Source: Thauera propionica | GTDB lineage: Bacteria > Pseudomonadota > Gammaproteobacteria > Burkholderiales > Rhodocyclaceae | Length of the DNA: 47,595 nt | NCBI RefSeq assembly: GCF_002245655.1 | Contig: NZ_NOIH01000022.1 | Span: forward strand, 1-47,595 | Direction of reading: 5' to 3' | Shown here: piece after piece, positions 9,367 through 39,483 of the stretch | Numbering within the stretch: the first letter of the stretch is position 1 | Layout: every line of letters begins with the position of its first letter | Translations under genes and position numbers: made by a program | The notes under the pieces: generated by a model | Databases searched by the model: none | What the model was told of the DNA's origin: nothing | Seen by the model: only the letters and a program-made list of their open reading frames with translations

Positions 9367-9833
9367 TGAGTTGGGATCTGGGATACCTGGCTGGGCAAGC
9401 AGCGGAGCGAGCGATTGGCGAGAACATTCTTGCGATCAAGGAAGGTCAGTGGAGACAGGAGATCAACGAGGTTGCCGCGGAACGCAATCAACTCGCCCGC
9501 AAGGTGCAAGAACTTGAGGCGCACCTTCGAGAACAGATTGCCTACTCCGACGACCTCCAACGAGATCTCGATCGTGCGCTACAGGCCTTGGCGAAGGCTG
9601 GCGCCAATCCCACTGAGCGACAAGCACTGTCCGTCGCACCCCATGTCCGTCGGCAGAAGCTGGCTGAAGAGGAACGGCTGCGCCGGGAAAAAGCTGAAGA
9701 ACAGGAGCGGCAACGTCGCCATCAAGCGTACCTGGCCTCGCTACCAACTCCAGCCCAGATCGAAGAGATGAAACAAAGAGAGGAGCTAAGGGAGCGGCGC
9801 AGGAGGCGCAATTTCCGCATCCTGGCCATTACT
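9366..9833 (+). pseudogene. N-terminal half of coiled-coil membrane protein split by the cargo island
   Basis: 156 codons encode a coiled-coil protein (about residues 20-150, rich in Glu/Arg/Leu). It ends in a basic stretch, RERRRRRNF, and the start of a hydrophobic helix, RILAIT. The frame then enters the island, where the sequence stops looking like protein and ends at 9998. The other half is at 39484-39840. Joining codon 156 to 39484 keeps the frame and completes a membrane helix (ILAIT, then AFLIWGATAAYEYV). The intact protein would be 274 aa, with a cytoplasmic coiled coil, one membrane span and a periplasmic domain. Confidence 0.85.
9826..9833. repeat. Target-site duplication, left copy (CCATTACT)
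   Basis: Eight bases directly outside the left island unit, repeated at 39476-39483 directly outside the right unit. Confidence 0.8.
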
Positions 9834-9881
9834 TGCCTGGCGTCAATTACTTTGACCGGCCAGGTTAATTGTCGCCGGCCA
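9834..9881. repeat. Left island end unit, 48 bp
   Basis: A nearly palindromic unit starting TGCCTGGCGTCAATTAC and ending TTAATTGTCGCCGGCCA. It matches the right unit at 39425-39475 in the same orientation, with two substitutions and a 3-bp gap. Its inner end abuts a truncated LysR gene. Confidence 0.85.
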
Positions 9882-9922
9882 TCGGCCAAAACGATAAAGC
9901 AACGCAGATGCCGCAGTTCCAT
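9882..9922 (-). pseudogene. LysR-type regulator, first 13-14 codons only
   Basis: On the reverse strand, ATG at 9922 opens MELRHLRCFIVLA, the typical start of LysR-type regulators. The frame runs straight into the left end unit at 9881, after which it no longer resembles the family. The rest of the gene is missing. The island therefore once continued past this point, or was assembled by cutting through a LysR gene. Confidence 0.6.
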
Positions 9923-10109
9923 GAGCAATGTTCCTATACAGGCGCTGACGACCTCCTTCTGTTTGCTCCACGCTATGCGCGTTGAAAACCTCTTTTAAGC
10001 GATGTTTTTTCATGTGTTCTTGAGCATGAGATGTAGGCGTTCAACTTTTCCAAACGAGAGATCGGGCTGTGTTTGACCGAGCATTCAAGAGCCCTGTTTA
10101 TCTACGGCG

Positions 10110-11627
10110 CTAAGGGTCAATCTTTACAATGTCCCCAATGTCTTGTACGTATGCGAGTGCATAGGCCATCTCTCCAGAGGTTTGCGCATGCAAAAACATC
10201 AATGGTTGTCCGCGTGTTATCTCGTCACCTAAGCGCACCTGCAATTGAATCCCTGCGGCTGGACTCTCAGGCGCACCGGCCAATTTGGCTAAACGAGAAA
10301 GCTTACGGTTGTCGATGTGTACTGCTCGGCCTGAAGTGGTTGCCAAAAGCGGTTCGACATAGAGAGCTTGGGGCGGCTCACGAAATCCCCCCTGAGCCGC
10401 GCAGATTCTCTGAAATTTTTCCCACGCGCGGCCACTGCTGATCGTCTCATGAGCCAACCGAAGTCCCTCCCCTTCTTTGGCGACGCCGCCAAGCTCAAGC
10501 ACCGCGCCCGCCACCAACGCCACGCGGTCACATAGGTCTTGCGGCGCATCCGCCTCGTTGCGCAACACGGCCAACACGTCGCGCGCCTCCAACGCCGGGC
10601 CGATACCTCTGCCGACAGGCTGATTCCCGTCTGTAAACAGGCAACGCAATACAAGGCCAAATGACGCGGCGACTTCCGAAAGGTGATGCGCAAGATGCTC
10701 GGCAGTTTCCCGGCTGCGGACTTTTGCGGTTGGCCCAACCGGAATATCGATCACGATGTGGGTCGCCCCTGCTGCAATCTTCTTGGATAACACCGAGGCA
10801 ATCAGTTGTCCTTGCGTGTCGATATCCAGTTCACGCTCAATACGCACGAAGATGTCGTCCGCGGGGCTGAGGTGCATCGCGCCGCCCCACGCCACGCATC
10901 CACCCTCTTTCTCCACGACCTTTCTGAGCGTATCCAGGTCCAGGTCTACAGGAGCCAGCGTTTCCATGGTGTCCGCGGTGCCAGCGGGAGAGGTGATGGC
11001 GCGTGATGAGGTCTTGGGCATCACCAATCCATTGGCTGCGGCGATGGCAACCACCAACGGCGTGGTGCGATTTCCCGGTAATCCGCCCACGCAATGCTTG
11101 TCCACAACAATCGGAGCCTGCCATTGCAGGTGATCCCCGACATCGACCATCGCACGGGTGAGATGGATGGTCTCTTGCATATCCAGAGGCAGTACCGCCG
11201 TTGCGGTCAGGAAGGCCGAAAGTGCGACATCGGTATAGCGACCATCGACCACATCACGGACGATCGCCTGCAACTCCGTCGTTTGCAGTCGGTGGCCGTG
11301 AATTCGCGCACGCACGGCCGACAACGATTCGAGCAGCGGAGGATGCCGAACCTGCACAAGATCGCCCTCATGAATGTCCAGGGCATCCCAGGCGGCCTCG
11401 GACAGAGCGATCTGTCCGGTTTTGAGCAGATCGCTGTCGATTTGGTACAGTAGCGCTTGCACAGTGCGGTCGCCGGCAATGATCAGTACCTGTGACCGCG
11501 GTGCCAGCCCTTCGGCACGGCAGACATGGCAATCGGTACGCATCAAGACGACGGGTTGATGCTGGGCATGCAGTCGCATGCGCAATGCTTGCAAGGCGGG
11601 TGTCTGGGGCGTGATGCGGGCACTCAC
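10110..11627 (-). CDS. AMP/thymidine phosphorylase-family enzyme (long form)
   Basis: A 505-aa member of the nucleoside/NMP phosphorylase family, which splits a nucleotide or nucleoside with phosphate to release the base and ribose (bis)phosphate. An N-terminal extension (about residues 1-85) precedes the core. The core carries KHCVGGLPGNRTTP (about 177-190) and KTSSRAITSPAGTADTME, in the form typical of AMP phosphorylases rather than short thymidine phosphorylases. The GTG at 11627 overlaps the previous gene's stop (GTGA) and has AGGAG 8 bp upstream; a longer frame to 11669 is less likely. It is the last intact gene of the reverse-strand array. Substrate is inferred. Confidence 0.85.
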   Translation of the reverse strand: MSARITPQTPALQALRMRLHAQHQPVVLMRTDCHVCRAEGLAPRSQVLIIAGDRTVQALLYQIDSDLLKTGQIALSEAAWDALDIHEGDLVQVRHPPLLESLSAVRARIHGHRLQTTELQAIVRDVVDGRYTDVALSAFLTATAVLPLDMQETIHLTRAMVDVGDHLQWQAPIVVDKHCVGGLPGNRTTPLVVAIAAANGLVMPKTSSRAITSPAGTADTMETLAPVDLDLDTLRKVVEKEGGCVAWGGAMHLSPADDIFVRIERELDIDTQGQLIASVLSKKIAAGATHIVIDIPVGPTAKVRSRETAEHLAHHLSEVAASFGLVLRCLFTDGNQPVGRGIGPALEARDVLAVLRNEADAPQDLCDRVALVAGAVLELGGVAKEGEGLRLAHETISSGRAWEKFQRICAAQGGFREPPQALYVEPLLATTSGRAVHIDNRKLSRLAKLAGAPESPAAGIQLQVRLGDEITRGQPLMFLHAQTSGEMAYALAYVQDIGDIVKIDP

Positions 11628-12982
11628 AGGGCGAACTCCTGGTTTTGCATGGGCACCGATGCGTGCCAATTGAGTTCGCGCTGGATACGTTCGCGCAGCG
11701 CCTCAGAGGCATCAGATTCACCGTGAACAATGAACACTCTTTCCGGCGCCTTGGTAAAGCCGCGCAGCCATCGCATCAGCTCATCGCTGTCGGCATGAGC
11801 CGACAACATCGCAAGCTCGGCGACCTCTGCCTTGATCGGCATCCAGCGTCCATGGATCTTGACTTCGCGAGCGCCCTCAAGCAGCTTGCGCCCGCGCGTA
11901 CCTGCTGCTTGGAATCCAGAGAACAGCAGCGTGTTCTGATGGCTACCGCCAAACGCTTCTATGTGATGCAGCACGCGGCCGCCGGTGGCCATGCCGCTGG
12001 CGGAAATAATCACCTTGGGGTATCGATTCGCCGATAGCGCCTTGGACTCTTCAACGTCGCGCACGTATGTGACTTCTGAGAATGCCGTCTCGAAATCGTG
12101 TTGAGCGAGCTTGTGGTCGTCGGCATGGCGGTGCAGCAGCGCAGTTGCGCTGGTGGCCATGGGACTGTCCAGATAGACGGGCACGTTGCGGAGCCGACCG
12201 CGCTGTCGCAACAGCCATAGGTCATAGATCAACGACTGCGCGCGTCCTACGGCAAAAGCGGGAATCACTACGGTGCCTCCGCGGCGAGTCGTACGCTCGA
12301 TGATGTCGCCTAGCGCTTCGACGGCATCGGAACGGTCATGATGACGATTGCCATAGGTGGACTCGATGATGATGTAGTCCGCTTCCGTGACGGGTTCAGG
12401 ATCAGGCATGACCGCATCGTCATAGCGGCCCAGGTCGCCGGAGAACACCAAACGCTTGCCGCCGATGTCGATCTGCGCCGTCGCCGCTCCAAGAATGTGG
12501 CCGGCCCTGCGTAGAACCAGGCGTGCACCGCCCGGCAATACCGTCTCCTGATGCAGTGGCACGGGCTTGAACTGCAAGAGCGTGCGTTCGGCATCTCGGA
12601 CCCGATACAGGGCAAGGGCTGGCTTGTGCTTGGAAAATCCCTTCCGGTTGGCGAACTCGGCATCCTTCTCCTGCAACCAAGCACTGTCGAGCAGGATGAG
12701 TTCGGCGACGTCCCGTGTGGCTGGCGTCGAGAAAATCTTCCCGCGGAACCCGTTCAGCACCAATCGGGGGAGATATCCACAATGATCCAGGTGCGCGTGC
12801 GTCAGTACAACCGCATCGATGTCCTTGGACTCAACGACAAGATGCTGCCAGTTCAGCTCGCGCAGGTTCTTCAGTCCTTGGAAAAGTCCGCAGTCGATCA
12901 GGATGCGGGTACTGCCATATGTGATCAGGTGTTTGGAGCCGGTGACGGTACCGGCACCGCCCAGGCTGGTCAGTGAGAGCAT
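11624..12982 (-). CDS. Beta-CASP metallo-beta-lactamase RNA-processing nuclease
   Basis: A 452-aa protein with the zinc-binding THAHLDHCG motif (His62, His64, Asp66, His67), a later AGHILGAA, SGDLG near 180, a beta-CASP insert (STYGNRHH, VVIPAFAVGRAQ), ISASGMATGGRVLHH, and the final SAHADSDEL and VHGES. This is the full layout of CPSF73-like and RNase J-related nucleases that cut RNA in the cytoplasm. The ATG has GGAGACAACTTC just upstream, nearly the same leader as the PRPP-synthetase-like gene. It is coupled to the phosphorylase gene downstream. RNA substrate is a family inference. Confidence 0.9.
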   Translation of the reverse strand: MLSLTSLGGAGTVTGSKHLITYGSTRILIDCGLFQGLKNLRELNWQHLVVESKDIDAVVLTHAHLDHCGYLPRLVLNGFRGKIFSTPATRDVAELILLDSAWLQEKDAEFANRKGFSKHKPALALYRVRDAERTLLQFKPVPLHQETVLPGGARLVLRRAGHILGAATAQIDIGGKRLVFSGDLGRYDDAVMPDPEPVTEADYIIIESTYGNRHHDRSDAVEALGDIIERTTRRGGTVVIPAFAVGRAQSLIYDLWLLRQRGRLRNVPVYLDSPMATSATALLHRHADDHKLAQHDFETAFSEVTYVRDVEESKALSANRYPKVIISASGMATGGRVLHHIEAFGGSHQNTLLFSGFQAAGTRGRKLLEGAREVKIHGRWMPIKAEVAELAMLSAHADSDELMRWLRGFTKAPERVFIVHGESDASEALRERIQRELNWHASVPMQNQEFAL

Positions 12983-13065
12983 GAAGTTGTCTCCTCGCTT
13001 GTTGGTGGGTTGTGAAATCAGGAGCTGGCGCGGTCACTGCGGACCGTGTCAGAACCACTTGAAAT

Positions 13066-15396
13066 TCACGCGTCGGTCGCGGCAGCAGCAGCCTGCGAAC
13101 TGTTCCAGCCGGTCACTTGCGCAGCGGCATAGATGGCATCCACCCAGGTGCATCGATTGGCGATCAGCATTCCAGCCACATCGAGGGTGCCGCCGTGGTT
13201 GATGTATCCCAAAGCCCGCGTCTTCGAAGGGCCGCTGTCAATGCGGCGAAGCACGCCCAGCATCGGCTCAGGGCGGGTATGGCTTATCAACACGCGCGGC
13301 AGGTGAGGCGGGAAGAGCGCTTGCAGGGATTCGTCACCGAGCACGAAGGCGGCCTCAAGTTCGTCTCGCGGAATGCGTAGACGGCCGGGCTCGACCACCA
13401 CGGTGATGCACGACGCAAGCCCATGGTGCTCCAGGCGGGCATGGGCTTTGAGCGCTTCCTCCAACTGGTAGGCGCCAATCGCTACGAATTGCAGTTGTGC
13501 GGTGGACGGATCGCCGGCTACATGGGCTGCTCCATGCTCGATCAGCGATTGAGCCGCGGCGGCACTGAAGTGATTCGGCGTGTCGCGCTTGGAGACCACC
13601 ACACAAGCCACTTGGCCGCGGCTGGCGTAGACCGCTCGCAACGCGGCGCACGCCGTGTTTTCATCCACCGGGAACAACACGCGTGCGGTGTCCGACATCT
13701 CCCCCAGCAATGCTTCGCCAATGGTCGGGTCCTGGTGTGACTGCTCGTTCTTGCTGTTCTCCCAGGTGTGGGATGTGACGATCAGCGGGACGGAGATCCA
13801 GCCTGGCGGCTGGCCCAGCTCCTTCTGCCGACGCGCGAAGATGATCTCCTGGCGCATCAATCCAAGCATCTTGACCGCGAATGCCTCGTAGCTGACGATC
13901 AGGTTCAGCCCCCCTTTGTTGGCGAGGGCGGCGGCCGCAACGGCTTCTTCATTGAGTGCGGTGACCACCGAGCCATCCGTCGATTCCGGGACGCCGGGTT
14001 CGGGCACGTTGACGCGGTGCTTGAGCAGCGCCAGAGTGGCCCCCATCTTGTTGCTGGCCAGTTCGTCGGGATTGCCGATCCGGATGCGCAACTGTGGATT
14101 TGCCTGCACCAGCTCCACGAACCAACGGTCCAGTGCGGACATGGCGCTGCCCGACACCTCCGTTGGCCCCCAGGTCGGCATCGGCAGTTGAGGACTCGCT
14201 GGATGGCGTCGGGCCATGGGGTGCTCGCTTTCGCGCGAGCGCCGGCTCTGGCCGTGATTCGCAAGAATGGTGAGCGCGTTTTCCAGTTCGGTCTCCGGCA
14301 CGAACAGCGCCGCAGCCCCTGCATTGAAGGCCTCGCGTGCCTGTGCATCCTCGCGCGGATTGCCGTCCAGCGGCAGGTTGTGGGCGGCATTGGTCGCCGC
14401 GCCCGGGAAGCCAAAACCTTTCTCCGTCTCGGCGATCACGTAGGGCAGCTTGACGGGATAGCGCCGGTCCGAGCGTGCGGCGAAGGCGCTCAGCGTGTCT
14501 TCGGCTTCAACAATGGCCCATGCGATCGCCATCGGATCACGTCCATCAACGATGACCGGATCGAAGCCGTTGTGGCGCAGGTCCTCGGCCAGCCAGGTAG
14601 CGCCACCTTCCTGCACGATCTGGGTGCGCTGCTCGATGCGCCGTCCGTTGAGAATCATGACCGGGATGGCGAAGCCGCAGTCCTCGGCGCGCCACCAGCG
14701 CGGCGCCCAGTCCGAGCCACGTTGTTCCTCGAAAGCGCCATCACTGAGGAATGCCACCAGGCTTTCTCCCGGCAACGGCGTGTGCACATACTGCAGCCCG
14801 GCGAACCCCAGATAGCCGCCTTCGGAGATCGCGCCGGCCGTGTTCGGCCCGGCATGGCTACCCAGCGGTACCGCGGGCCGACCCTGCTTATCGATGGCAT
14901 AGGAGTAGAAGTCCGCGATCAAACGCGACAGGCCCGCCTCGCTGCGGTCGTAGCGTCCACGCTGGGCGGCGGATACATCGCCGGTCAGTGCGTTCACCGC
15001 CTCGATCGCGGCCACGCAGTGCCCCTGCCCCATGAGCCAGCCGCGTGTCGTCCCGGTCAGCGCGTTGGCCAACAGATAACCCACGAAGGCTGGCACCATG
15101 TTGAGCGAGCCGCCGGTGTGGCCTTCGGGCGTTTGTTTGAAATCATCGGAGCCCAGTGGGCAGCCGCTTCGGTCGATGCGCCGGGCATAGGTCATATGCG
15201 CCACTACGCTCATGGCCGTGCAGGCCACCCGGTCGGCTGCAGCCAGCAGCGCATGGGCCGAGGCTTCATCTGCCACACGCCCTTGCGCAACCATGCGGTG
15301 CACGAGGGTCTGCATACGTTCGATGGTTTCGGACTGGTGCGCGATGGGCCCGTAACCGGCACGCCAATCGATTGCGAGGTTAGCCTGAGAGGGCAT
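13066..15396 (-). CDS. Phosphoketolase/transketolase-like ThDP enzyme
   Basis: A 776-aa protein of the ThDP-dependent phosphoketolase/transketolase superfamily. Visible features are EGHTGGSLNMVPAFVGYLLAN (about 90-110), GQGHCVAAIEAVNAL, SEGGYLGFAGLQYVH, then LSDGAFEEQRGSDWAPRWW, where the cofactor-binding GDG-like segment lies. The C-terminal half has HTWENSKNEQSHQDP and SDTARVLFPVDENTACAALR. Phosphoketolases split xylulose-5-phosphate into acetyl-phosphate and glyceraldehyde-3-phosphate. Relatives of this subfamily are sometimes labelled xylulose-5-phosphate epimerase, so the exact reaction is open. It lies between the PRPP-synthetase-like and nuclease genes, and the island also encodes acetyl-phosphate users. 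Confidence 0.8.
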   Translation of the reverse strand: MPSQANLAIDWRAGYGPIAHQSETIERMQTLVHRMVAQGRVADEASAHALLAAADRVACTAMSVVAHMTYARRIDRSGCPLGSDDFKQTPEGHTGGSLNMVPAFVGYLLANALTGTTRGWLMGQGHCVAAIEAVNALTGDVSAAQRGRYDRSEAGLSRLIADFYSYAIDKQGRPAVPLGSHAGPNTAGAISEGGYLGFAGLQYVHTPLPGESLVAFLSDGAFEEQRGSDWAPRWWRAEDCGFAIPVMILNGRRIEQRTQIVQEGGATWLAEDLRHNGFDPVIVDGRDPMAIAWAIVEAEDTLSAFAARSDRRYPVKLPYVIAETEKGFGFPGAATNAAHNLPLDGNPREDAQAREAFNAGAAALFVPETELENALTILANHGQSRRSRESEHPMARRHPASPQLPMPTWGPTEVSGSAMSALDRWFVELVQANPQLRIRIGNPDELASNKMGATLALLKHRVNVPEPGVPESTDGSVVTALNEEAVAAAALANKGGLNLIVSYEAFAVKMLGLMRQEIIFARRQKELGQPPGWISVPLIVTSHTWENSKNEQSHQDPTIGEALLGEMSDTARVLFPVDENTACAALRAVYASRGQVACVVVSKRDTPNHFSAAAAQSLIEHGAAHVAGDPSTAQLQFVAIGAYQLEEALKAHARLEHHGLASCITVVVEPGRLRIPRDELEAAFVLGDESLQALFPPHLPRVLISHTRPEPMLGVLRRIDSGPSKTRALGYINHGGTLDVAGMLIANRCTWVDAIYAAAQVTGWNSSQAAAAATDA

Positions 15397-15432
15397 CTCG
15401 GGTTCCTTGAAAATAGCGGGATAGGTGGAAGA

Positions 15433-16329
15433 TCAGGCTCGCGGATCGGTCTGGCCGCTGGATAGCGCGCCGGCAATCAGCGAAGCCAGACCGATCCGGT
15501 TGCTCGGATGCGGCACCGCGTCGGTGGACGTGATCCGAGCGAACAGCGGCGTCAATTGGCTCCAGGCGTCTTCGGCGAATAGGGCATGCACCACTACGCA
15601 CTCCGGCTTGCGCATTCCTTGTTCGGCGAGTTTGTGCGCCGCGACAGCGAGCGTGCGGCCCGAGGATGCGATGTCGTCCACCAGCACCGGCGTTCTGTCA
15701 CGCCAGACCGACAGGTCGGGAACATCGATGTCCACGCTGCGATCGCCATGGCGTGTCTTGCGAAGCACGGCGTGCGGCACGCCGATGCGGGAGGCGATGG
15801 AGCCGGCCCACTGCTCGCTTTCCTCATCGGGGCCGACGATCAAGGGCTTTTCGACATGATTGGCGATCCAGTCGGCCAGCAGCGGCGCGGCATGCAAGGT
15901 AGTGGTGGGAATCGTGTAGAGCGCGGAGAGCGTTGGATAGCGGTGCAGATGTGGATCCACCGTAAGCAGCTTGTCGAACGTCGATGAGACCATGCGTGCG
16001 AAAGACCGCGATGTCACGCTTTCGCCGTCATGGAATCGTTTGTCCTGGCGCATGTAGGCCAGGTATGGTGCAACCAGATTCACTTCGCGCGCGCCGAGCT
16101 CGCGTGCGGCGTCCGCGGCAAAAACCAGAAGCAGGAATTGCGGATCAGGATGGGTCAGCGTGCAAATCAGATCCACGATCTGGCCGGTAGGTTCGCCATG
16201 CAGTCGGACATAGCTCTCGCCATCGGGGAATCGGCGCGTTTCGATGCGGCCGACATCGCCGCCATATGTCTGCGCGAGACGACGGGCGAAATCTTCGTTG
16301 CCTGGAAGGGCAAGGGTGAGTCGTTGCAT
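15433..16329 (-). CDS. prs: Ribose-phosphate pyrophosphokinase-like protein
   Basis: A 298-aa protein with the PRPP-synthetase features RRFPDGESYVRL (about 32-43), APYLAYMRQDKRFHDGESVTSR (87-108), a VDPHLHR segment (124-130) and the PRPP-binding loop VLVDDIASSGRTL (215-227). The family makes PRPP from ribose-5-phosphate and ATP. It is slightly shorter than housekeeping Prs (about 315 aa), and its loop and flexible regions differ, so it is probably a second, specialised copy. AAGGAGACAACTGC precedes the ATG. It sits with nucleotide- and pentose-phosphate enzymes, so it could recover or supply phosphorylated ribose. Confidence 0.85.
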   Translation of the reverse strand: MQRLTLALPGNEDFARRLAQTYGGDVGRIETRRFPDGESYVRLHGEPTGQIVDLICTLTHPDPQFLLLVFAADAARELGAREVNLVAPYLAYMRQDKRFHDGESVTSRSFARMVSSTFDKLLTVDPHLHRYPTLSALYTIPTTTLHAAPLLADWIANHVEKPLIVGPDEESEQWAGSIASRIGVPHAVLRKTRHGDRSVDIDVPDLSVWRDRTPVLVDDIASSGRTLAVAAHKLAEQGMRKPECVVVHALFAEDAWSQLTPLFARITSTDAVPHPSNRIGLASLIAGALSSGQTDPRA

Positions 16330-16480
16330 GCAGTTGTCTCCTTTCTTGTGAGTTGTCCTTGGTCGCTTATCGAAACTCAGGCGCTTGGTCGGAGTCGATG
16401 CTTCATCCGGGCAACCAGGCTCGTGCCGACGAATAACGACGGGATGGCCCGTGTTGAGTCCAGGAAGGAACTGATCTGCA

Positions 16481-29608: not shown

Positions 29609-32371
29609 TCAACGCTCCTGCTTCTTGAGTAGCAAAACGGCTGCGCCGAGAATCACCGGGACCGACAAAAGCATCGACCACAGCGGCCCCGTCAGGTCGG
29701 CCAGGCCGAGTGATTTGTTGAACACGCCACGGCTGATGGAGATCATGTGCGTGGCGGGGTAGATCTCGCCGATGAACTTGCTGGAGCCTTCAAGCGAGGA
29801 CACGGGATCGATCAGGCCGGCGAACTGGGTGGCCGGTATGAGGGTGCCGATCATGGCAAAGAACATGGCGGCGATCTGGCTGCGCGTGACGGCCGAGGCC
29901 AGCAGCCCCATGCCTGTCGCGGCGAAGGAGAAGATCAGCGCGGCCAGCGCCAGGGTGAAGAAGCTGCCCTTGACCGGCACACCGAAGATGGTCACTGCGA
30001 GCAGGCTCATCAGCAGGAAGTTCACCATGGCCAGGCCGACATAGGGCAACTGCTTGCCAAGCAGGAACTCGATGCGCGTGACCGGCGTCACGTAGAGATT
30101 GGTGATCGATCCCGTCTCTTTCTCGCGCACCACCGCCAGCGCGGTCAGCATGGCCGGCAGCATGAGCAGCAGCAGAGGGATCACCGCAGGCACCATGGCC
30201 GGCAGGCTCTTGACATCGGGGTTGTAGCGAAAGCGCGTCTCGACGTTGGTGTTGCCAGCCATGCTGGCGCCGCCGCGCTCGCTGGCCTGTATCTGCAGCC
30301 AGTGCTGGTGCATGCCCTGAACGTAGCCCTGGACGGTTTCCGCGCGTTGCGGCATGGCGCCGTCGATCCAGGCACCTATCTGCACGTTCTGGCCTCGCAA
30401 CACGTCGCGGCTGAAGCCAGGGGGGATTTCGATGGCCAGCGACAGTTCGCCGCTGCGCATACGCCGGTCGAGATCCTCGTAATCGACGATAGGCGGGTGC
30501 TCTGTGAAGTAGCGCGAGCCGGCCAAGTTCAGCGTGTAGTTCTGGCTAAGCGTGGTCTGGTCGCGATCGAGCACCGCATAGCTCAGGTCCTCGACGTCCA
30601 TGGTGATGCCGAAGCCGATCACGAACATCAGCAGCAGCGAACCGCCCAGCGCCAGCGTGGCGCGTACCGGGTCCCGCTGCAATTCCAGCGTCTCGCGCCA
30701 CAGATAGCTGAACATTCGCTGCAGACTGAAACCGCCAGAGCCGTGCCCGCCGTGTTCAGCGGGCGCCGCCGATGGTTGCTCCTCGTGATCGGCGGCCCCG
30801 GGCTGGCTGGCCGGCGCCGCCGTGCCGCCCTCGGCTTCGACGAGGTAGCCGATGAAGGCCTCTTCAAGGGTTTTGGCGCCGCGCTTCTCGACCAGTCTGG
30901 CGGGCACGTCGCTGTCGAGCACCTTGCCCGCATGCATCATCGACATGCGGTCGCAGCGCTCTGCCTCGTTCATGAAGTGGGTGGAAATGAAGACCGTCAC
31001 CCGGTCACGCCGCGACAGCTCGATGAGCAGTCGCCAGAACGCATCGCGCGCCACCGGGTCGACGCCCGAAGTCGGTTCGTCCAGAATCAGCAGTTCTGGC
31101 TTGTGCACCATGGCGACCGCCAGCGACAGGCGTTGGCGTATGCCCAGAGGCAGACTGGCCGGCAGGCTGTCGATGACGTCCACCAGCCCGAAGCGCTCCA
31201 CCATCTCTTCGACGCGGCCCGGAATGTCCTTCGGGGGCACGCTGAACAGCTTGGCGTGCAACTCCAGGTTCTGGCGTACCGTGATTTCGCTGTAGAGCGA
31301 GAATGCCTGCGACATGTAGCCGACGCGGCGGCGGGTGCCCAGATCATGCGGGTTCACTTCATGGCCGAACAGCCAGGCTCGTCCCTCGCTCGCCGGCAAC
31401 AGGCCGGTAAGCATCTTCATCGTCGTGGACTTGCCGCACCCGTTGGAGCCGAGGAAGCCGAAGATTTCACCGCGCCGGATGCGGAAGGACACGCTATCGA
31501 CGGCAACGAAGTCGCCAAAGCGCATGGTCAGCCCTTTGGCCTCGATGGCGATGTCGTCGGCGCCGCCATCCGACAAGGGGGGAATGACTACCGCTTGGTG
31601 TCCGCGCTTTTTCTCTTCCGGGAGCAGGCGGATGAATGCCTCTTCCAGGTTCGGGCTGCCTGTTCTTGCCAGCAATTCCTTCGGCGTGCCGGTGGCGAGG
31701 ACCTTGCCGTCGTCGATGGCGGCCAGCCAGTCGAAGCGCTGGGCCTCATCCATGTAGGCCGTGGCCACAATCACGCTCATGCCGGGGCGATCGGCGCGGA
31801 TGCGCTCGATCAGATCCCAGAACTGCGCGCGCGCCAGCGGGTCCACGCCAGTCGTCGGCTCATCGAGAATCAGAAAATCCGGGTCATGAATCAGCGCGCA
31901 GCACAGGCCGAGTTTTTGCTTCATGCCCCCGGACAGCTTGCCTGCCGGGCGCTCCAGGAATTTGAACAGGCCAGTGGCCTGAGTGAGCTCATCGATACGC
32001 TGGCGGCGCTCTGCGGCGCCATGACCGAACAGGCGCGCGAAGAATTGCAGATTCTCCTCGACCGAGAGCGTCGGGTACAGGTTCTTGCCCAGTCCCTGCG
32101 GCATGTAGGCGATGCGCGGGCATACCTGCTTGCGATGGGCCTTGCTGGCCATGTCGCCACCCAGCACCTCGACCGTGCCCTCCTGGATGATACGTACGCC
32201 AGCCAGCAATGAGAGCAGACTCGACTTGCCTACGCCGTCGGGGCCGATCAGGCCGACCATCCGTCCGGCGGGAATGTCCAGATCGATGCCATCCAGGGCG
32301 ATGACGTCGCCGTAGCGCAGGCTTACCTGATGGGCACTGGCAACGGTCGCGAGCTGCGCACTGTAGCTCAT
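29609..32371 (-). CDS. rbbA: RbbA-like fused ABC ATPase-permease
   Basis: 920 aa with two ATPase domains followed by an ABC-2 permease domain. ATPase 1: Walker A GPDGVGKS (43-50), signature LSGGMKQK, Walker [14 protein letters not shown]. ATPase 2 (from about 275): GSNGCGKST, Walker [14 protein letters not shown], but its signature reads LPLGIRQR in place of LSGGxQR. The permease (about 565-920) has a periplasmic domain and several spans with [19 protein letters not shown]. In E. coli the relative RbbA has been linked to ribosomes, but here the adaptor, permease and outer-membrane partners argue for an exporter. Substrate unknown. Confidence 0.92.
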
Positions 32372-32374
32372 ACC

Positions 32375-33454
32375 TTACTCCGGCACGCGAACGGAGAGGT
32401 TTTGAGGCCACTCGGCATTGGCGTCGAGCTTGACCCAGGCCACGCCGGGCAAACCGGTCTTGACCTGCTGCAGGTGTTCACGCAGCAGCTCCTGCGAAAT
32501 CTGCGCGCGCACGCGGAACATCAGCTTCTGCCGCTCGCTGGCGGTTTCTACCGTCTTGGGAGTAAATTGCGCCACACTGGCGACGAAGGAAACGCTCGCT
32601 GGAATAACAAACTCCGGCGCGGCATCCAGAATGATGCGGACCTCGGAACCCAGCGCGACGCGGCCGGCCACGGTCTCGGGCAGGAAGAAGGTGATGTAGA
32701 CGTCCGACAGGTCGATAAGATTCAGGACGCGTCCGCCCGATCCCAGCACCTCGCCGGGTTGCGCCACCCGCACCTGCACCCGCCCGTCGCGCGGGGCACG
32801 CAGTTCGCTGTCGCGGATGTCCGCTTCGATGCGATTGATGCTGGCCGTGGCAGCGGACACGCTGGACCTCGCGCCGACAAGCTGCGCCTTGGCGGCCTCA
32901 ACCGCGGCGCGGGCAGCGGCGGCCTGCGCTTTGCTGGCCGCAAGCGTCGCCTGTGCGCCCCGTACGCGTGCCCGGTCATCGTCCAGCTCCTGTATCGAGG
33001 CGGCGCCCTCTTGGGACAGGGTTTGCGAACGTTTCAGCCGCCGTTGGGCAGCGTCGAGCTCCGACTCGCGCTGACCGACCAGGGCCAGGGCGGCAACAAC
33101 GTCGGCTTCGCGCAGCGCCACCTGTGCCTGCGCTGCGGTCACCGAGTGCTCGGCCTGCTGGCGCATGGCGAGGGCCTCGTCGCGCTGCGCTTCCAGCGTT
33201 TCCAGCCGCATCTTGGCCAGTGGCTGGCCGGCTGTGACGAAATCGCCTTCACGCACCAGGATGTCTTCGATGCGGCCGGGAAGTTTGGTGGCCACGTCGA
33301 TCTCGGTGGCTTCGATGCGGCCATTGCCGTTGACGAATCCTTCGCCCGGGCCGCTGTCGGTAAACCTCGTCCAGCTCCACCAGGCCAGCGCGGCAACAAC
33401 CGCTGCAGCGAAAGCGACCAGGAGTTTTTTCTTGAGAGAGGGGGAGACAGTCAT
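32375..33454 (-). CDS. HlyD-family membrane-fusion protein, YhiI-like
   Basis: A 359-aa adaptor with one N-terminal membrane anchor (about residues 8-27), a first lipoyl half (GNGRIEATEIDVATKLPGRI), a long coiled-coil hairpin (about 90-215) and a second lipoyl half with RAPRDGRVQVRVAQPGEVL. It would link the inner-membrane ABC transporter to the outer-membrane factor across the periplasm. It ends 3 bases before the RbbA-like start. Confidence 0.93.
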   Translation of the reverse strand: MTVSPSLKKKLLVAFAAAVVAALAWWSWTRFTDSGPGEGFVNGNGRIEATEIDVATKLPGRIEDILVREGDFVTAGQPLAKMRLETLEAQRDEALAMRQQAEHSVTAAQAQVALREADVVAALALVGQRESELDAAQRRLKRSQTLSQEGAASIQELDDDRARVRGAQATLAASKAQAAAARAAVEAAKAQLVGARSSVSAATASINRIEADIRDSELRAPRDGRVQVRVAQPGEVLGSGGRVLNLIDLSDVYITFFLPETVAGRVALGSEVRIILDAAPEFVIPASVSFVASVAQFTPKTVETASERQKLMFRVRAQISQELLREHLQQVKTGLPGVAWVKLDANAEWPQNLSVRVPE

Positions 33455-33468
33455 GGGTTCGGCGTGCC

Positions 33469-34956
33469 TTAACGGGTTGATGGGGTGGAAGCGGGAGTCG
33501 AGGCCGCACCCTGTGCCTCGCCGGCTGCGGCGAGGGTGCCGCCGCCGAGCGCGGCATACAGCGCCACCTGGCTGGACAGCAGCGCGCGGCGCGCCTGTAC
33601 CAGTTGTTGCTGGGCTCCCAGCAGATCGCGTTGGGCATCCAGCACTTCCAAGAAGGCGGCCGAGCCGTTGTCGTAGCGCAACTTGGCCAGCCGTGCGCGT
33701 TCGCTTTGTGCTTCCAGATTGGCCCGCTGGATCGTCAATTGCTCAGCCAGCCAGTACTTGGCGCTCAGTGCATCAGCCACCTCGCGGAAGGCCGTTTGAA
33801 TGGTTTTCTCGTATCCGGCGACGGCGATGTCGCGGCGCACCTCGCTCAGTTCCAAGTTTGCGCGCCGCCGCCCGCCATCGAAGATGGGCAGCGACAAGGT
33901 AGGCATGAAGGTCCAGGCACGACTGCCGGAATCGAACAAGCCATTCAAGTCGGAGCTGGCCGTGCCGAAGCTGCCGGTCAGCGCAATGCGCGGCAAGAAC
34001 GCCGCACGGGCCGCGCCGATGTTGGCATCGCCGGCACGCAATTGGTGTTCGGCGGAAATGATGTCCGGGCGACTGACCAGCAGCTCCGAGGGCAGGCCGG
34101 CCCGGAGTTCGGCCAGCACCGTTGTTTCATCGAAGGGTGCCTTGGTGGGCAGCGGGCCAGGATCGGCACCTACCAGCAGTGCCAGCGCGTGCAGTTGCGT
34201 GGCGCGTGCTTGCTCAAGCTGGGTTAGCAGCGCCTGAGCCTGGTTCAGCAAAGTTTGGACTTGAGTGAGGTCCAGCTTCGAGGTCGAGCCGACTTCAACG
34301 CGGCGCCGGAAAATGCGATAGGACTCCTCGCGGGTCGCGACGGTTTGACGGGCGATAGCCACGCGTTCGTCTATCTCGCGCAAGCCAAGATAACCGTCGG
34401 CCACCTGGGCGATCAGCGCCAGGTGGACGGCCTGGCGGGCCGCGTCGGAAGCCAGCCAGCTTTGCAGGGCGGCGTCTTCCAGGTTGCGGACCCGGCCCCA
34501 CAGATCCAGCTCCCAGGTGCTCAAACCCACCTCGGCCCGATATTCGCCGCCCACCTGCGACCGGCCCGACATGTTCAGATCGCCAGGGACGCGGGCGCGT
34601 CCACCCTGGGCACCCACGCCCACGGCAGGAAATCGATCCGAGCGCTGAATGCGGAATGCGGCGCTGGCTTCCTCGACACGCAGCGCGGCCAGGCGCAGAT
34701 CGCGGTTGTTCTCCAGCGCGGTCTCGATGAGGCGTTGCAGCAAAGGGTCCGTGAAGTAGGCCTGCCAGGCAAGTTCTCCCGCGTGGGCACCCTCGGTGCT
34801 CGATTCAAGATGACCAGGCCAAACCTCGGGTACCGGCAGCGGCGGGGTATCAGGAGCAGGAGCGAGCGACATGCAGCCGGTCAGTACGACGGCGCTCAGT
34901 GCCAGCGAGGCAGTGCGCAATTTGAACTCAGACAATAAAGGAAAAGCTGGAGGCAT
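33469..34956 (-). CDS. Outer-membrane factor (NodT/TolC-like lipoprotein)
   Basis: A 495-aa NodT-type efflux channel. The signal peptide ends in the lipobox LTGC (Cys near residue 28). Two internally related halves follow, each with long helices and TELDLWGR-like and SDLNGLFDSGSRAWTFMP segments. The C-terminus has a Ser/Ala/Thr tail. The ATG at 34956 is chosen because the frame to 35088 adds 44 residues without signal-peptide character. First gene of the export operon, transcribed from the divergent region near 35.25 kb. Confidence 0.92.
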   Translation of the reverse strand: MPPAFPLLSEFKLRTASLALSAVVLTGCMSLAPAPDTPPLPVPEVWPGHLESSTEGAHAGELAWQAYFTDPLLQRLIETALENNRDLRLAALRVEEASAAFRIQRSDRFPAVGVGAQGGRARVPGDLNMSGRSQVGGEYRAEVGLSTWELDLWGRVRNLEDAALQSWLASDAARQAVHLALIAQVADGYLGLREIDERVAIARQTVATREESYRIFRRRVEVGSTSKLDLTQVQTLLNQAQALLTQLEQARATQLHALALLVGADPGPLPTKAPFDETTVLAELRAGLPSELLVSRPDIISAEHQLRAGDANIGAARAAFLPRIALTGSFGTASSDLNGLFDSGSRAWTFMPTLSLPIFDGGRRRANLELSEVRRDIAVAGYEKTIQTAFREVADALSAKYWLAEQLTIQRANLEAQSERARLAKLRYDNGSAAFLEVLDAQRDLLGAQQQLVQARRALLSSQVALYAALGGGTLAAAGEAQGAASTPASTPSTR

Positions 34957-35399
34957 GATCACGTTCCGTACGGGGTTCGGGCTGATAGGGCCTGGTTGTA
35001 GAGGAGTAGCCGCCCACGTACAGCGACGCGCAGGCATGTCGGTCACCAACGAACGCTGCAATCGAGCGCGACTTTGATGGCTGTTCACGCCACCTCCCTA
35101 TTAATGTCTGCACTCTCGCCTCTAGCGACCGGTCGATGGGGCTCTCCTGCTTCATTTTCCGGCGTTCCGGGTTCGTATGCGTCCCTGCGAATAGTGCGCG
35201 TTATCGCACACTATAAAGAAAACCACTGGACGGTTGTTTGTGATTATACCTTACAATCCCGAAAACGCAATTAGCCGTTCACTAGGCACTGCACACCCGC
35301 CAGTTGGAAGTGCTCAGCCTGGGCTGACCATGCGCCCATGGTGGAACCGGTGACCAGCCCATGGGACAATCCAGTCAATTTTTGAACAGGGACCTTTGT
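34957..35399. promoter_or_regulatory. Divergent control region of exporter and tetR operons
   Basis: This 443-bp gap holds a reverse-strand promoter candidate, TTGCGT (35265-35270) and TATAAT (35243-35248) with a 16-bp spacer. A candidate operator at 35192-35213 and a palindrome CGACCGGTCG at 35126-35135 are also present. No convincing forward -35/-10 pair was found for tetR. Confidence 0.5.
35192..35213. promoter_or_regulatory. Candidate TetR operator
   Basis: Imperfect inverted repeat TAGTGCGCG-TTAT-CGCACACTA, 8 of 9 positions paired. It lies just downstream of the likely exporter transcription start and between the divergent operons, where a TetR regulator would repress the exporter. Confidence 0.5.
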
Positions 35400-36032
35400 A
35401 TGCCAACCAACAAAGACGACGTACCAGGCAAGCGCCGCTATCTGTCTTCTGTGGCCAGGAGAGAGGAAATATTGAATGCGGCGTTGATCGAGTTTGCGGA
35501 TCGGACATACAACGCCGTGTCGATGGAGCGCCTGGCGGAATGTGCGGGCTTATCCAAGGCAGGCATCTACGCCCACTTCAAAAGCAAGGAAGAAATTTTT
35601 CATGCCTTGCTCGAACGCACGACAAAGCAGATTTGCGATTTCCAGGGCTGGCTCCCGGATGAAGATCTGACGTTGCCAGAGCTGGTAGATGTCTACCTGG
35701 ATCGCCTATACGCGACCTTTAGCTCCCTTGCCACGATGTCGATTTACCGGCTGCTTCTGGCCGAAAGCGCCAGAACACCAGAGCTGGTGCAGCGTTGGCA
35801 CAACGAAGTTGCTCACGGACTGAAAGAGCGGGCGCAGCTCATCATCCAACGCAACATAGAACGGGGCATCATTCGTCCGGGTGTCTTGACCGAGCACTTT
35901 TTCCCGCTGGCGCTCGCTCCCGCACTGCTATGGCTGAACTCGTCAATGCTATCCAGGGGAAACCCTTCCATAGAGCTCGTGCAGGTACGAGATGCGCATC
36001 GGCAGCTGCTGCTTGAGCTCTTGCAGCCTTGA
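35400..36032 (+). CDS. TetR/AcrR-family regulator
   Basis: A 210-aa regulator. The N-terminal helix-turn-helix reads RREEILNAALIEFADRTYNAVSMERLAECAGLSKAGIYAHFKSKEE (given in part; residues 21-65), the canonical TetR pattern. The C-terminal ligand-binding part is helical. ATG 35400 is preferred over the frame start at 35361, which lies upstream of the usual family start. It is divergent from the exporter and coupled to the DUF4105 gene, so it probably represses both. Confidence 0.93.
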   Translation: MPTNKDDVPGKRRYLSSVARREEILNAALIEFADRTYNAVSMERLAECAGLSKAGIYAHFKSKEEIFHALLERTTKQICDFQGWLPDEDLTLPELVDVYLDRLYATFSSLATMSIYRLLLAESARTPELVQRWHNEVAHGLKERAQLIIQRNIERGIIRPGVLTEHFFPLALAPALLWLNSSMLSRGNPSIELVQVRDAHRQLLLELLQP

Positions 36033-37078
36033 TGAGCAAGGTAAGGCAAAAAGCCAGACACCTCCCCATGCGCCTGGTGATCGGCATTGCGGTGCTATTG
36101 CTGACTGCGTGGGGCGCGCTGGCCCTGTGGCACCAGATGCCGCAACATCCAGCGGCTCGCTGGATCGCCACTCTGGCGTGGTCTGCCTCGGGGCTGTCCG
36201 TCGCCGTGTCGCTGGCAGGCTTGCTTGAAAGACGGACACGCAGGATCGCCGGATTCGTGTTCGGGGCCGCAACGGCAGCCCTGCTCATGTGGTGGGGAAC
36301 GCTGCAGCCATCACACCAACGCCCATGGGCTGACGATGTCGCCCAGTTGCTGGAGGCCAGGATCGACGGCGATCATGTTCAACTGAAAAATGTACGCAAC
36401 TTCGAATGGCGCAGTGAAACCGATTACACGCCGCGTTGGGAGAACCGTACCTACGACCTTACCCGCCTGCGTAGCGCCGATCTGGTACTTTCCTACTGGA
36501 TGGGGCCGCACATTGCGCACACACTGGTGTCGTTCGGCTTCGACGGTGGCGAGCGGGTGGTGTTCTCACTGGAAATACGCAAGGAGCGCCACGAGTCCTT
36601 CTCGGCGATCGGCGGATTCTTCCGTCAGTTCGAGCAGATCCTGGTAGCCGCCGATGAGCGCGACATTGTGCGTACGCGCAGCAATGCGCGAGGCGAGGCC
36701 GTTTATCTCTATCGGTTGCAGATGAGTCAGGCGAATGTCCGCGCGTTGTTTCTGGAGTATCTGCACGCGGCCAATGAACTGCGGCGCACACCGCGCTTTT
36801 ACAACACCTTGACCAGTAACTGCACGACCATCGTATTCGAGCTGGCTCGGCTCATTGCGCCAGCGTTGCCGGCGGACTATCGCCTGCTGCTGTCCGGACA
36901 CTTTGCGGAATACATCCATGACCTGCACGGATTGACGCCCGGCCATCGCTACGCAGAACTGCAGGCACTGGGGCACATCAACGAACGCGCACTGGCCTCT
37001 GACGCATCAGGAGACGACTTCTCGATGTCGATTCGACAAGGTGTGCCCGGCGTGCCGGCCGACGAGGTATCTCCATGA
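36032..37078 (+). CDS. DUF4105 membrane protein
   Basis: A 348-aa protein with three N-terminal membrane spans (about 13-32, 45-65, 72-90) and a periplasmic DUF4105 domain (about 100-330). The domain has SADLVLSYWMGPHIAHTLVSFGF with His163 and FYNTLTSNCTTIVFE with Cys264, a His/Cys pair expected of a papain-like hydrolase fold. The ATG overlaps the TetR stop by one base. The reaction is not established; an envelope thiol hydrolase is inferred. It is coupled to the lipase by ATGA. Confidence 0.85.
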   Translation: MSKVRQKARHLPMRLVIGIAVLLLTAWGALALWHQMPQHPAARWIATLAWSASGLSVAVSLAGLLERRTRRIAGFVFGAATAALLMWWGTLQPSHQRPWADDVAQLLEARIDGDHVQLKNVRNFEWRSETDYTPRWENRTYDLTRLRSADLVLSYWMGPHIAHTLVSFGFDGGERVVFSLEIRKERHESFSAIGGFFRQFEQILVAADERDIVRTRSNARGEAVYLYRLQMSQANVRALFLEYLHAANELRRTPRFYNTLTSNCTTIVFELARLIAPALPADYRLLLSGHFAEYIHDLHGLTPGHRYAELQALGHINERALASDASGDDFSMSIRQGVPGVPADEVSP

Positions 37079-39015
37079 GGTTCCAGCAGTCTTGCCGCAT
37101 GGCAGTGTGGCTCGTCATTGCCCCGCTGTTGCTGGGGGGCTGCTCGATCCTGCGTGAGTTCGGCCCAGTGGTTGAGGTTCATACACTGGATGCGGGCGAG
37201 GCCATCGAACTCAAGCGCGGCGATATCCTGACACGCGGCAAACTCAGCGAGGCGACGACCCAGACCATCAGGGTGGCGGCATTGGATGCGCAGGCTTGCG
37301 CAAAACCGATCTCAGCGGATTGCGTCGAGGCCCTGGCCGCCGTGACCGGCGTTGCCGCGGATCGACGCCTGGCTGCACTGTCCGAACTGTGGCTGGCGCA
37401 GGCTCAGGCCATGAAGCCCGGATCAGAGCAGCAAGCCGCCTGGCTTGAGACCATTCGTTATGCCTATGCCTACCTGTTCTTCGGTGACCATACGCCTGGG
37501 GAGCGAGCCTTCGAGGATCGCCAGACGCAAGTGCGGGATTGGTATAACTATGCGGTCGAACGTGCCGCCACCGGGATGTTCGAGGTTCGGCAACAAATGT
37601 CTACGCAGTTGCCAGCGCAGACCCGCTGGAACATTGCAGGCTGGGAGCTGCAGCTGGATATGCGCAGCGCGCGCTTGCCGGGCAGTACGGCGGTGCCAGC
37701 CGAACTCCTGCCAGCCTCGTCCCTGTCTTTCCGCGGACTGCGCAGCCTCTACCGGCGCGACGGTTTCGGCGCCGAGCTGGTGGCGGTCATGCCGGACGAA
37801 CCCCTGACTTCCGCCCCCACCCGGGATGGCCGTCCAGCGGCCAAACGCAATCAGCAGCCTCTACCCTGGAGCGAGATGCCCGCGCCGTCCATGACGATTC
37901 TGCTGCACCCGGACGGAGACGACCTGGACAGCGTGCTGCATACCCGCACTGTCCGTTTGACGGTGCATGACCCCTATGTGGAGTCGGCCATCATGCTGCG
38001 CGGGCAGCGCGTACCGCTGGCGGCCAATTTCACCGCCGGCTACGGACTGTGGCTGGCCCGCGCCAACTTCAACCGGCAGTCGCTGCGCAGCCTGCTTGGG
38101 CGCGAGGGTGGCATCGACCGTCCGCACGTCTACCTGATGCAACCCTACGATCCGAACAGACGTATCATCGTCATGCTGCACGGACTAGCCAGCAGCCCGG
38201 AAGCCTGGGTGGAGCTCGCCAACGAAATCCTGGGCGATGAGACCCTGCGCCAGCATTACCAGATCTGGCAGGTCTACTATCCGACCAACATGCCGATTGC
38301 CATAAACCACGCGGCGATTCGGAAGGCGCTGGAAGAGACGCTGGCTCATTTCGACCCTTCCGGCCAGGCACAGGCATCATCCGACCTGGTACTGATAGGG
38401 CATAGCATGGGCGGCGTTATCGCGCGGTTGATGGTGTCATCAACCGATCAGTCGCTAGTCCAGCTGGCCAGGGACCGCGGTCGGCTAACACCGAAGCAGA
38501 TCGAGCGCATAGATCCGATGCTGCGTTTTGAACCTTTTCCGCACATCAGCCGCGCCATCTTCATCGCAGCGCCCCACCGGGGCACGTCAATCGCGGCAAA
38601 ACCCCTGGGACGTTGGATGGCAAGTTTCATTCGACTTCCCGTTACGGTGCTCGAAGAGCTCGCCCAGACGCTGGTGCCCAATGCGGCGGCCAGCAGCCAT
38701 GAAAGCCTGGCAACCATTCCCAATAGCGTGAACAATCTCGACGAAAACGATCCGTTCGTGCGTACGGCGGCGGGCTTTCCCATCTCATCCCAGGTGCGCT
38801 ATCACTCGATCGTGGCCCAAGCCAATTCCGAAGTGGCCCTCGATGATTCCGATGACGGTCTTGTGCCTTATCGCAGCGCACATCTTCCCGGCGCACAGTC
38901 CGAGAAAGTCATTATTTCGGGGCACAGCGTGCAACAGAGCGCGGCCGCGATACTGGAGATCCAGCGTATTCTGAGAGAGGACATGGCTCTGCGGGAAGCG
39001 CATTTACAGCCATAG
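37075..39015 (+). CDS. Alpha/beta-hydrolase lipoprotein (lipase/esterase-like)
   Basis: A 646-aa protein with a lipoprotein signal (LLLGGC, lipidated Cys23). An N-terminal region of about 340 residues of unknown fold is followed by a lipase-type domain: RRIIVMLHGLASSPEAW, then GHSMGG with Ser443, SRAIFIAAPHRGTSIAAK, DSDDGLVPYRSA for the acid and ISGHSVQQS for the His. It is likely anchored in the envelope and acts on lipids or esters. ATG 37075 overlaps the DUF4105 stop. Confidence 0.88.
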   Translation: MRFQQSCRMAVWLVIAPLLLGGCSILREFGPVVEVHTLDAGEAIELKRGDILTRGKLSEATTQTIRVAALDAQACAKPISADCVEALAAVTGVAADRRLAALSELWLAQAQAMKPGSEQQAAWLETIRYAYAYLFFGDHTPGERAFEDRQTQVRDWYNYAVERAATGMFEVRQQMSTQLPAQTRWNIAGWELQLDMRSARLPGSTAVPAELLPASSLSFRGLRSLYRRDGFGAELVAVMPDEPLTSAPTRDGRPAAKRNQQPLPWSEMPAPSMTILLHPDGDDLDSVLHTRTVRLTVHDPYVESAIMLRGQRVPLAANFTAGYGLWLARANFNRQSLRSLLGREGGIDRPHVYLMQPYDPNRRIIVMLHGLASSPEAWVELANEILGDETLRQHYQIWQVYYPTNMPIAINHAAIRKALEETLAHFDPSGQAQASSDLVLIGHSMGGVIARLMVSSTDQSLVQLARDRGRLTPKQIERIDPMLRFEPFPHISRAIFIAAPHRGTSIAAKPLGRWMASFIRLPVTVLEELAQTLVPNAAASSHESLATIPNSVNNLDENDPFVRTAAGFPISSQVRYHSIVAQANSEVALDDSDDGLVPYRSAHLPGAQSEKVIISGHSVQQSAAAILEIQRILREDMALREAHLQP

Positions 39016-39082
39016 ACAACTGCCATCTGCTGTGCGCGGCCGAGCTGATTTCGGATTTCGTATGGGCGTAATGCATTCATCT

Positions 39083-39277
39083 GAATGCGCAAAGAGCATC
39101 AGACTTACTGTTGCCCGCTCGACGCTGGCACAGTGGGTCGGTGCGTGCGGCGCGCAACTGCAGCCGATGGTAAAGGCGCTGGATGACGAACTGCGTCGCC
39201 ACGTGGTGCTGCACGCCCACGAGACGCCGATGCTCAAGCCCAAGCATCTTGGCGACGGCAAGGCGTACCCAACGTGA
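39083..39277 (+). pseudogene. IS66-family transposase fragment
   Basis: The frame encodes RSTLAQWVGACGAQLQPMVKAL and then RHVVLHAHETPM, matching the IS66 transposase segment normally read as LHADETP. The catalytic Asp is a His, and the frame then ends at TAC-CCA-ACG-TGA. It is debris at the right edge of the island. Confidence 0.7.
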
Positions 39278-39462
39278 TCCGCCGTCTGGCGGCGACCCAG
39301 CCCATGCTCGACAAGATCGTCGGCCACCAACGCTACATCGCTCAGGCCTACGGCATATCGATGGAGCATGCGCGCTGGCTGTTGACCACCGTGGCGTTCC
39401 ACTGCCTTGCCGTGGCCGACACGGTGCCCGGCGTCAATTACTTTGGCCGGCGGTCAGGTTAA
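39274..39462 (+). other. Unclassified remnant frame abutting right end unit
   Basis: 62 codons with MIRRLAATQPMLDKIVGHQRYI and then HARWLLTTVAFHCLAVADT. It runs into the right end unit, which supplies its last residues. It may be the tail of a lost gene. Not recognised. Confidence 0.3.
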
Positions 39463-39475
39463 TTGTCGCCGGCCA
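39425..39475. repeat. Right island end unit, 51 bp
   Basis: Same orientation as the left unit, starting TGCCCGGCGTCAATTAC and ending TTAATTGTCGCCGGCCA. It carries an internal TGGCCGGCG/CGCCGGCCA inverted repeat. Its outer edge directly meets the CCATTACT duplication. Confidence 0.85.
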
Positions 39476-39483
39476 CCATTACT
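39476..39483. repeat. Target-site duplication, right copy (CCATTACT)
   Basis: Pairs with 9826-9833. Joining 9833 to 39484 keeps the reading frame of the split gene. Confidence 0.8.

Follow-up and report, generated by a model that had tools for sequence, protein, structure and literature searches.

Composite transposons can be bounded by non-autonomous miniature elements, as in TIME-COMP, whose bounding modules are derived from Tn3 (PMC4133298, PMC13367494; these and the papers cited below are drawn on for the sections available). Miniature inverted-repeat transposable elements (MITEs) typically measure 50–500 bp and tend to escape standard annotation (PMC13367494), and a composite-like transposon flanked by IS21-family repeats, TnC5ppsal, is also known (PMC6723655). 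A composite bounded by IS21-derived miniature elements was not among the matches listed in the open-licence literature, and the available sections of a transposable-element review (PMC9330008) mention IS21 and MITEs with no IS21-derived MITE. Here, we describe a 29.6-kb island in a 47,595-bp stretch of Thauera propionica DNA (contig NZ_NOIH01000022.1, positions 1 to 47,595, hereafter the window). Our analysis suggests that it is probably, with real room for doubt, a non-autonomous composite transposon bounded by two ~50-bp IS21-derived mini-elements (MITEs) in direct orientation and moved by IstA/IstB from elsewhere.

Insertion into a host gene

A preliminary description of the window, made from its letters, had claimed an island with an 8-bp duplication at its ends that interrupts a gene. 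The direct repeat CCATTACT indeed stands at both 9826–9833 and 39476–39483, and the element between the two copies spans 9834–39475 (29,642 bp), which fixes its ends to the base as proposed. The insertion site and the island ends comprise the following features.

9366..9833, plus strand: 5′ half of the host gene, left target duplication included (joined frame and homologue alignment)
9826..9833, plus strand: CCATTACT, left copy of the 8-bp target duplication (sequence read)
9834..9881, plus strand: left mini-element, 48 bp, IS21 right-end outer repeat (9834–9859) followed by an inverted left-end outer repeat (9860–9881)
39425..39475, plus strand: right mini-element, 51 bp, oriented as the left one, with an IS21 left-end repeat as its outer end
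39476..39483, plus strand: CCATTACT, right copy of the 8-bp target duplication (sequence read)
39484..39840, plus strand: 3′ half of the host gene (joined frame and homologue alignment)

As a control set we used all 5,673 exact 8-mer direct pairs with a spacing of 25–35 kb within the window. When the 16 bp immediately within each copy are compared in inverted orientation, the CCATTACT pair ranks first among them (13/16 matching, the next pair reaching 12), and it also leads the 31 pairs that have TG..CA just inside, with a score of 13 against 9 for the runner-up. Joining 9833 to 39484 gave a single frame of 274 codons, as had been reported. However, an open joined frame of at least 270 codons was also obtained for 967 of the 5,673 control pairs, so that the frame alone is weak evidence, and we dropped it as proof of insertion. 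Stronger and independent support for an insertion comes from homology to uninterrupted genes. A search of 101 genomes, the window's own and 100 others (E <= 0.001), detected an uninterrupted homologue in two of the 100, both of the same genus and each with one open frame. The two predicted proteins (258 and 255 amino acids) cover residues 6–271 and 5–271 of the 274 across the junction, with identities to the joined host protein of about 37–39% and 33–35%; the other 98 genomes gave no match to the host gene at this threshold. The host gene has a likely membrane helix. An IS605-type OrfB (TnpB) gene lies near the insertion, outside the island, at 43132–44433.

Arrival of the island as one unit fits its structure, in which the terminal tips match and a single target duplication encloses the whole. 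That excision restores the gene, as the preliminary description put it, is an inference; the sequences observed are homologues that carry no insertion. Moreover, the reported lack of an intact transposase agrees with our domain scan of 20 island open reading frames (ORFs), in which we found no transposase or integrase domain. The one transposase-like piece detected in the island, a 60-codon open stretch close to its right end, has a 44-residue match to an IS66 transposase.

Mini-elements at the borders and beyond

Each island end carries a near-palindrome of about 50 bp, and the left and right ones have the same orientation. Their origin was suggested by a 20-base tip pattern, which hits 14 of 297 family genomes, most often (eight times) the same-genus genome G113; the tip context was inspected for only some of the 14. 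In G113 the tip marks one end of a 2,485-bp IS21-family insertion sequence (IS), of which there are five identical full copies with IstA- and IstB-type frames and target duplications of 6, 6, 7, 7 and 6 bp. This IS is 87% identical over its full length to two Aromatoleum plasmid elements annotated as ISAzo16 type, an element for which we found no papers in the open-licence literature. Compared with the full IS, the right-end-type tips of the two window units agree with its right end at 22/26 and 24/26 positions and their left-end-type tips with its left end at 21/22 and 22/22, whereas matches to the other end type are poorer (16–17/22). On these comparisons, each window unit consists of two outermost repeats of an IS21-family IS, that of the right end and, joined directly to it, that of the left end in reverse. 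The inner repeats and both genes are absent, so that the ~2.4-kb middle of the IS is gone, and the inner sides of both IS ends share six letters, CCGGTC. The left and right window units are identical in 45 of 48 core letters, and the exact 20-base tip pattern has no further occurrence in the window's assembly. In another genome, a sequence (L162 in G018) carries a left-end tip of this IS21 type with different sequence where the second repeat would be expected, and is perhaps a truncated or hybrid element.

We also searched for whole units outside the island. A first, stricter unit pattern missed one unit, in G299, and hit one unrelated sequence in G304; a relaxed pattern dropped the latter and added the former. 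The relaxed pattern found just four units at four sites in three of 395 family genomes, all of one genus: two in the window, one in G307 and one in G299, with no hit for the control pattern. All four are 48–51 bp long (48, 48, 50 and 51 bp), at or just under the lower edge of the size given for typical MITEs, and carry no transposase gene inside; they match the right-end repeat in 22–25 of 26 letters and the left-end repeat in 21–22 of 22.

The G307 unit (48 bp, with a 6-bp duplication) is embedded in the reading frame of an IS5-type transposase. At this place exactly 54 bp, corresponding to the unit plus one copy of the duplication (48 + 6), are missing from homologous IS5-type sequences in two genomes, G244 (91% over the query) and G323 (83%), and a homologous sequence in G311 (79%) is likewise 54 bp shorter. 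Thus, at this site a discrete insertion with a target duplication can be read against empty sites. The unit and its 6-bp duplication add exactly 18 codons without a stop here, and the transposase frame stays open at 248 amino acids (L180:1400–2146). The G299 unit measures 50 bp and has an 8-bp duplication; the DNA around it is rich in repeats, and no empty site was read there. In viral contigs the whole-unit pattern had no hit and the 20-base tip pattern had 33 loci, with the tip context inspected at one of them (L136). At E <= 0.1, the right-end unit had no match in phages or Escherichia coli genomes and one 25-bp tip match in plasmids.

The joints within the units vary slightly (0, +2 and +3 bp). 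The left unit and the G307 unit share T as fifth base and the shortest joint, and the right unit and the G299 unit share C at this position and a longer joint. Joint length and fifth base thus pair the units as inherited subfamilies would. This grouping is weak, because by identity across the 48 core letters the unit most like the right one is that of G307 (47), ahead of that of G299 (46); the left unit shares 46 letters with G307 and 45 with the right unit.

Source region and cargo

The origin of the moved segment can be traced through relatives of its phosphoketolase, which are common. We took the best 80 of at least 590 confirmed loci and made alignments for 14 of the 80; the ten loci whose protein is at least 95% identical to the query phosphoketolase (L012–L020 and L025) are referred to as close relatives. 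In eight of these ten, homology begins exactly at 9882, the first base past the left unit, and beyond it the close relatives carry other sequence that runs on. In the remaining two, homology begins at 12930 (L019) or the contig is short (L020). At the right border, homology ends at 39426 in four of the ten, two bases (TG) into the right unit, and these two letters are identical in the relatives and the unit; five others end earlier, at 39001 or 39089, and one has only a 36-bp match. An exact string found the right-border letters in three of the four relatives and left the fourth (L097) unmatched. Both borders cut genes or gene remnants:

9882..39424, no strand: segment of 29,543 bp collinear with an internal part of an element resembling an integrative and conjugative element (ICE) in relatives
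9882..9928, minus strand: beginning of a LysR gene truncated at the left border, ~47 bp counting from the listed TTG start; the Zoogloea relative has this gene intact
39268..39424, plus strand: piece resembling a TetR-type gene, cut by the right mini-element and continuing in relatives

In Zoogloea sp. 1C4 the whole segment is collinear over 29.6 kb, with 97.3% identity over 15.1 kb and 90.3% over 14.5 kb. Ten flanking ORFs were chosen there for a domain search: on the left side one ORF carries phage-type integrase domains, and on the right side four ORFs carry TraI_2, TraG_N, TraC_F_IV and TraG-D_C domains. With an integrase gene on one side of the collinear stretch in Zoogloea and conjugation genes on the other, the window copy is, judged by this alignment, an internal cut from an ICE-like element. 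In contrast to the Zoogloea element, the window copy has no flanking integrase and conjugation genes, and the 20 scanned island ORFs hold none either, so that the island itself does not qualify as an ICE.

These comparisons qualify the preliminary description in two respects. The position of the ends is exact, but they are not the natural ends of a self-standing island, since the relatives continue past both. Furthermore, it had proposed a search for the same island within other flanks and had counted copies with different ends and no duplication against itself. Judged by their ends, which do differ, the relatives' copies come near to that outcome.

The cargo genes, predicted from domain searches except for the last row (a 60-codon open stretch), are the following.

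10110..11669, minus strand: thymidine/AMP phosphorylase-like
11624..12982, minus strand: beta-CASP metallo-hydrolase (RNase-like)
13066..15396, minus strand: divergent phosphoketolase
15433..16329, minus strand: ribose-phosphate pyrophosphokinase-like
16481..17722, minus strand: LpxR-like outer membrane protein
18133..19884, minus strand: polyhydroxyalkanoate (PHA) synthase (PhaC), closest to class I, below the cut-off of that model
20028..21284, minus strand: sodium/glutamate symporter
21230..22777, minus strand: acetate/propionate kinase
22548..23300, minus strand: short-chain dehydrogenase/reductase (SDR) oxidoreductase
23362..24783, minus strand: bifunctional enoyl-CoA hydratase/phosphate acetyltransferase
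24780..27209, minus strand: DUF3141 protein
27232..28074, minus strand: acetoacetyl-CoA reductase
28477..35088, minus strand: four genes for an ATP-binding cassette (ABC) permease, an RbbA-type ATPase/permease, an HlyD adaptor and an outer membrane efflux protein
35361..39015, plus strand: three genes for a TetR regulator, an Lnb_N-domain protein and an alpha/beta hydrolase
39095..39274, plus strand: IS66 transposase remnant (44 residues match), internal and common to relatives

The domains of this set suggest carbon overflow, polyester storage and export. No papers on phosphoketolase/PHA cargo in ICEs were found in the open-licence literature. The phosphoketolase is 95–98% conserved in the ten closest relatives and scores far below the NCBIfam phosphoketolase cut-offs (best model 138 bits versus a cut-off of 962), and is therefore a divergent branch. 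The beta-CASP hydrolase, which adjoins the phosphorylase and phosphoribosyl pyrophosphate synthetase-like genes, has the type VII CRISPR Cas14 model as its best NCBIfam hit, at 395 bits far below the cut-off of 800. The acetate kinase frame has about 117 residues ahead of the kinase domain, the first part of which overlaps the SDR frame; the true start may therefore lie further in. A comparison of the cargo with plasmids gave 40 records, none of which covers 80% of the query. Among the 20 records listed, 19 fall inside the exporter genes, and the remaining one (H66) includes a second piece. Identity reaches 90–95% for three of the 40, and the matched region of these three was not among the matches listed.

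Routes of movement and known systems

The preliminary description had left open how the island moved. The candidates are now an IS21-type (IstA/IstB) reaction and, with lower likelihood, recombination at a unit. We favour, as the more probable course and with modest confidence, movement of a composite by IstA/IstB, because its outer tips are one right-end and one left-end repeat that face each other as in a normal IS21 element, and because the target is duplicated. Such a course might have begun with an ISAzo16-like IS21 element that lost its middle, leaving one outer repeat per end, head to head; the shared CCGGTC suggests that this occurred by microhomology deletion. The resulting units would then have reached new places, as is seen at the two other loci, where they are flanked by 6- and 8-bp duplications. 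Both units would next have sat in the parent ICE. Comparison places the borders of the block inside the LysR gene and the TetR-like remnant, between the integrase and the conjugation genes of the ICE-like element. Supplied in trans, IstA/IstB could have acted on the right-end tip at the outside of one unit together with the left-end tip at the outside of the other, and thereby moved everything between these outer tips. This order of events, which we infer, would end in the present arrangement, where 8-bp target duplications enclose a 29.6-kb block within a gene that has a likely membrane helix.

Several observations weigh against this reading. A parent with units at both cut points was not found. 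For an IS21-family IstA in vitro, each pre-cleaved end had to carry two complete direct repeats (PMC10122671, as far as its available sections go), whereas an end of these units has a single outer repeat accompanied by an inverted one. With 8 bp, the duplication here also differs from the 6–7 bp of the full IS and the 5 bp in PMC10122671. On the other hand, an 8-bp duplication also flanks the G299 unit, and duplications of 7–8 bp are tabulated for Paracoccus IS21 elements (PMC3281130). Furthermore, the window's assembly has no IstA match (E <= 0.001), so that the presence of the enzyme is not shown, and among 29 genomes of the genus full IstA genes of this type (G113, G311 and G313) and whole units (G000, G307 and G299) were not found together in any one genome. 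The IstA search, the stricter unit pattern and a DNA query containing the G307 unit were run on all 29, and the relaxed pattern covered 22. Identity counts, finally, give no clean grouping of the units, and four unit sequences are too few to decide between composite movement and its rivals.

An unlikely alternative is that the CCATTACT duplication dates from an earlier insertion of a lone mini-element into the host gene. Recombination of two directly repeated units in the parent ICE would have released a circle of the cargo with one unit, and this circle would then have recombined into the resident mini-element. This route would yield an identical final structure, is compatible with the direct orientation of the window units and their 45 of 48 shared core letters, and has been proposed for two MITESen1 composites in direct orientation (PMC13367494). 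However, it requires two crossovers within ~50 bp, none of the four units found is a lone unit flanked by CCATTACT, and both host-gene homologues align through without a unit.

Slightly less probable again, and thus also unlikely, is a collapsed classical composite, in which the cargo was moved by a pair of full-length IS21 copies whose middles were each lost in situ afterwards. Such a history would avoid the problem of single repeats and has a parallel in TnC5ppsal; moreover, the unit joints differ as separate deletions could make them, and the right unit is nearest to G307 (47/48) despite their different joints. Against it, both ends here and both solo sites would have had to undergo the same collapse, G113 yielded no whole unit despite its five full IS copies, and the pairing of fifth base and joint length leans to inherited subfamilies, although in four sequences only.

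We regard as very improbable an assembly artefact in which the assembler collapsed full border repeats: the assembly has 57 contigs, and repeats can be lost in this way, but the window units differ from each other, the assembly has no IstA match, and the two-contig genome G307 has an equal unit with empty-site controls. Movement by IS66 elements, which also produce 8-bp duplications, can be rejected as the least credible of all, because the remnant with its 44-residue match near the right end is internal, it and the TetR-like piece that follows lie in a stretch shared with four relatives that diverge beyond the border (read as letters in one of the four), and the terminal sequences match IS21 ends.

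A further, tentative proposal is this: a 48-bp mini-IS21 with one IstA repeat per end in an inverted array may be a working mobile element, and two of them may suffice to move about 30 kb. The inverted partner repeat would then replace the second direct repeat that IstA reportedly needs. In that case, the units would be smaller than any miniature element, and the composite longer than any, for which the available sections of the cited papers give a size; very small sequences may thus move very large DNA. Islands of this type would go down as unexplained insertions, as was the case with this one, because standard annotation tends to miss MITEs. The case also suggests how the cargo of a conjugative element might be released and lodged at another site while no transposase remains with it. 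Moreover, it offers a sharp test of IS21 biochemistry, namely whether single outer repeats in an inverted array are enough in cells, or whether collapse or recombination gives the same picture.

Compared with known systems, the window units resemble IS21-family elements such as ISAzo16 of Aromatoleum and IS5376 in their outer right- and left-end repeats, their TG...CA tips and duplications of several bp. Unlike these, they have no istA and istB, the second (inner) end repeat is missing, and the outer repeats are joined directly. The island is not a classical composite transposon, as its bounding units of 48 and 51 bp encode no transposase and none was found in the 20 scanned ORFs, nor is it an IS66 element, the remnant being internal and the border tips of IS21 type. 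It resembles TnC5ppsal in carrying metabolic cargo flanked by IS21-family sequences, but in the description available (PMC6723655) the IS21-family elements of TnC5ppsal are inverted, whereas here there are only ~50-bp derivatives in direct orientation. The closest likeness is to TIME-COMP, where two non-autonomous miniature elements also bound unrelated cargo with a target duplication around the whole. In the accounts available (PMC4133298, PMC13367494), its modules may be direct or inverted and the transposase is supplied in trans, as we propose here for IstA/IstB. Membership in TIME-COMP proper is precluded, since that class has Tn3-family repeats and 5- or 6-bp duplications, in contrast to the IS21-type tips and 8 bp of this island. 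Its modules are also far shorter (48–51 bp versus 244–262 bp for those whose sizes these accounts give), and the element measures 29.6 kb, compared with just over 1 to over 10 kb for those in PMC13367494. Overall, the island works like TIME-COMP and is an IS21-derived counterpart of it with much smaller modules and a larger cargo.

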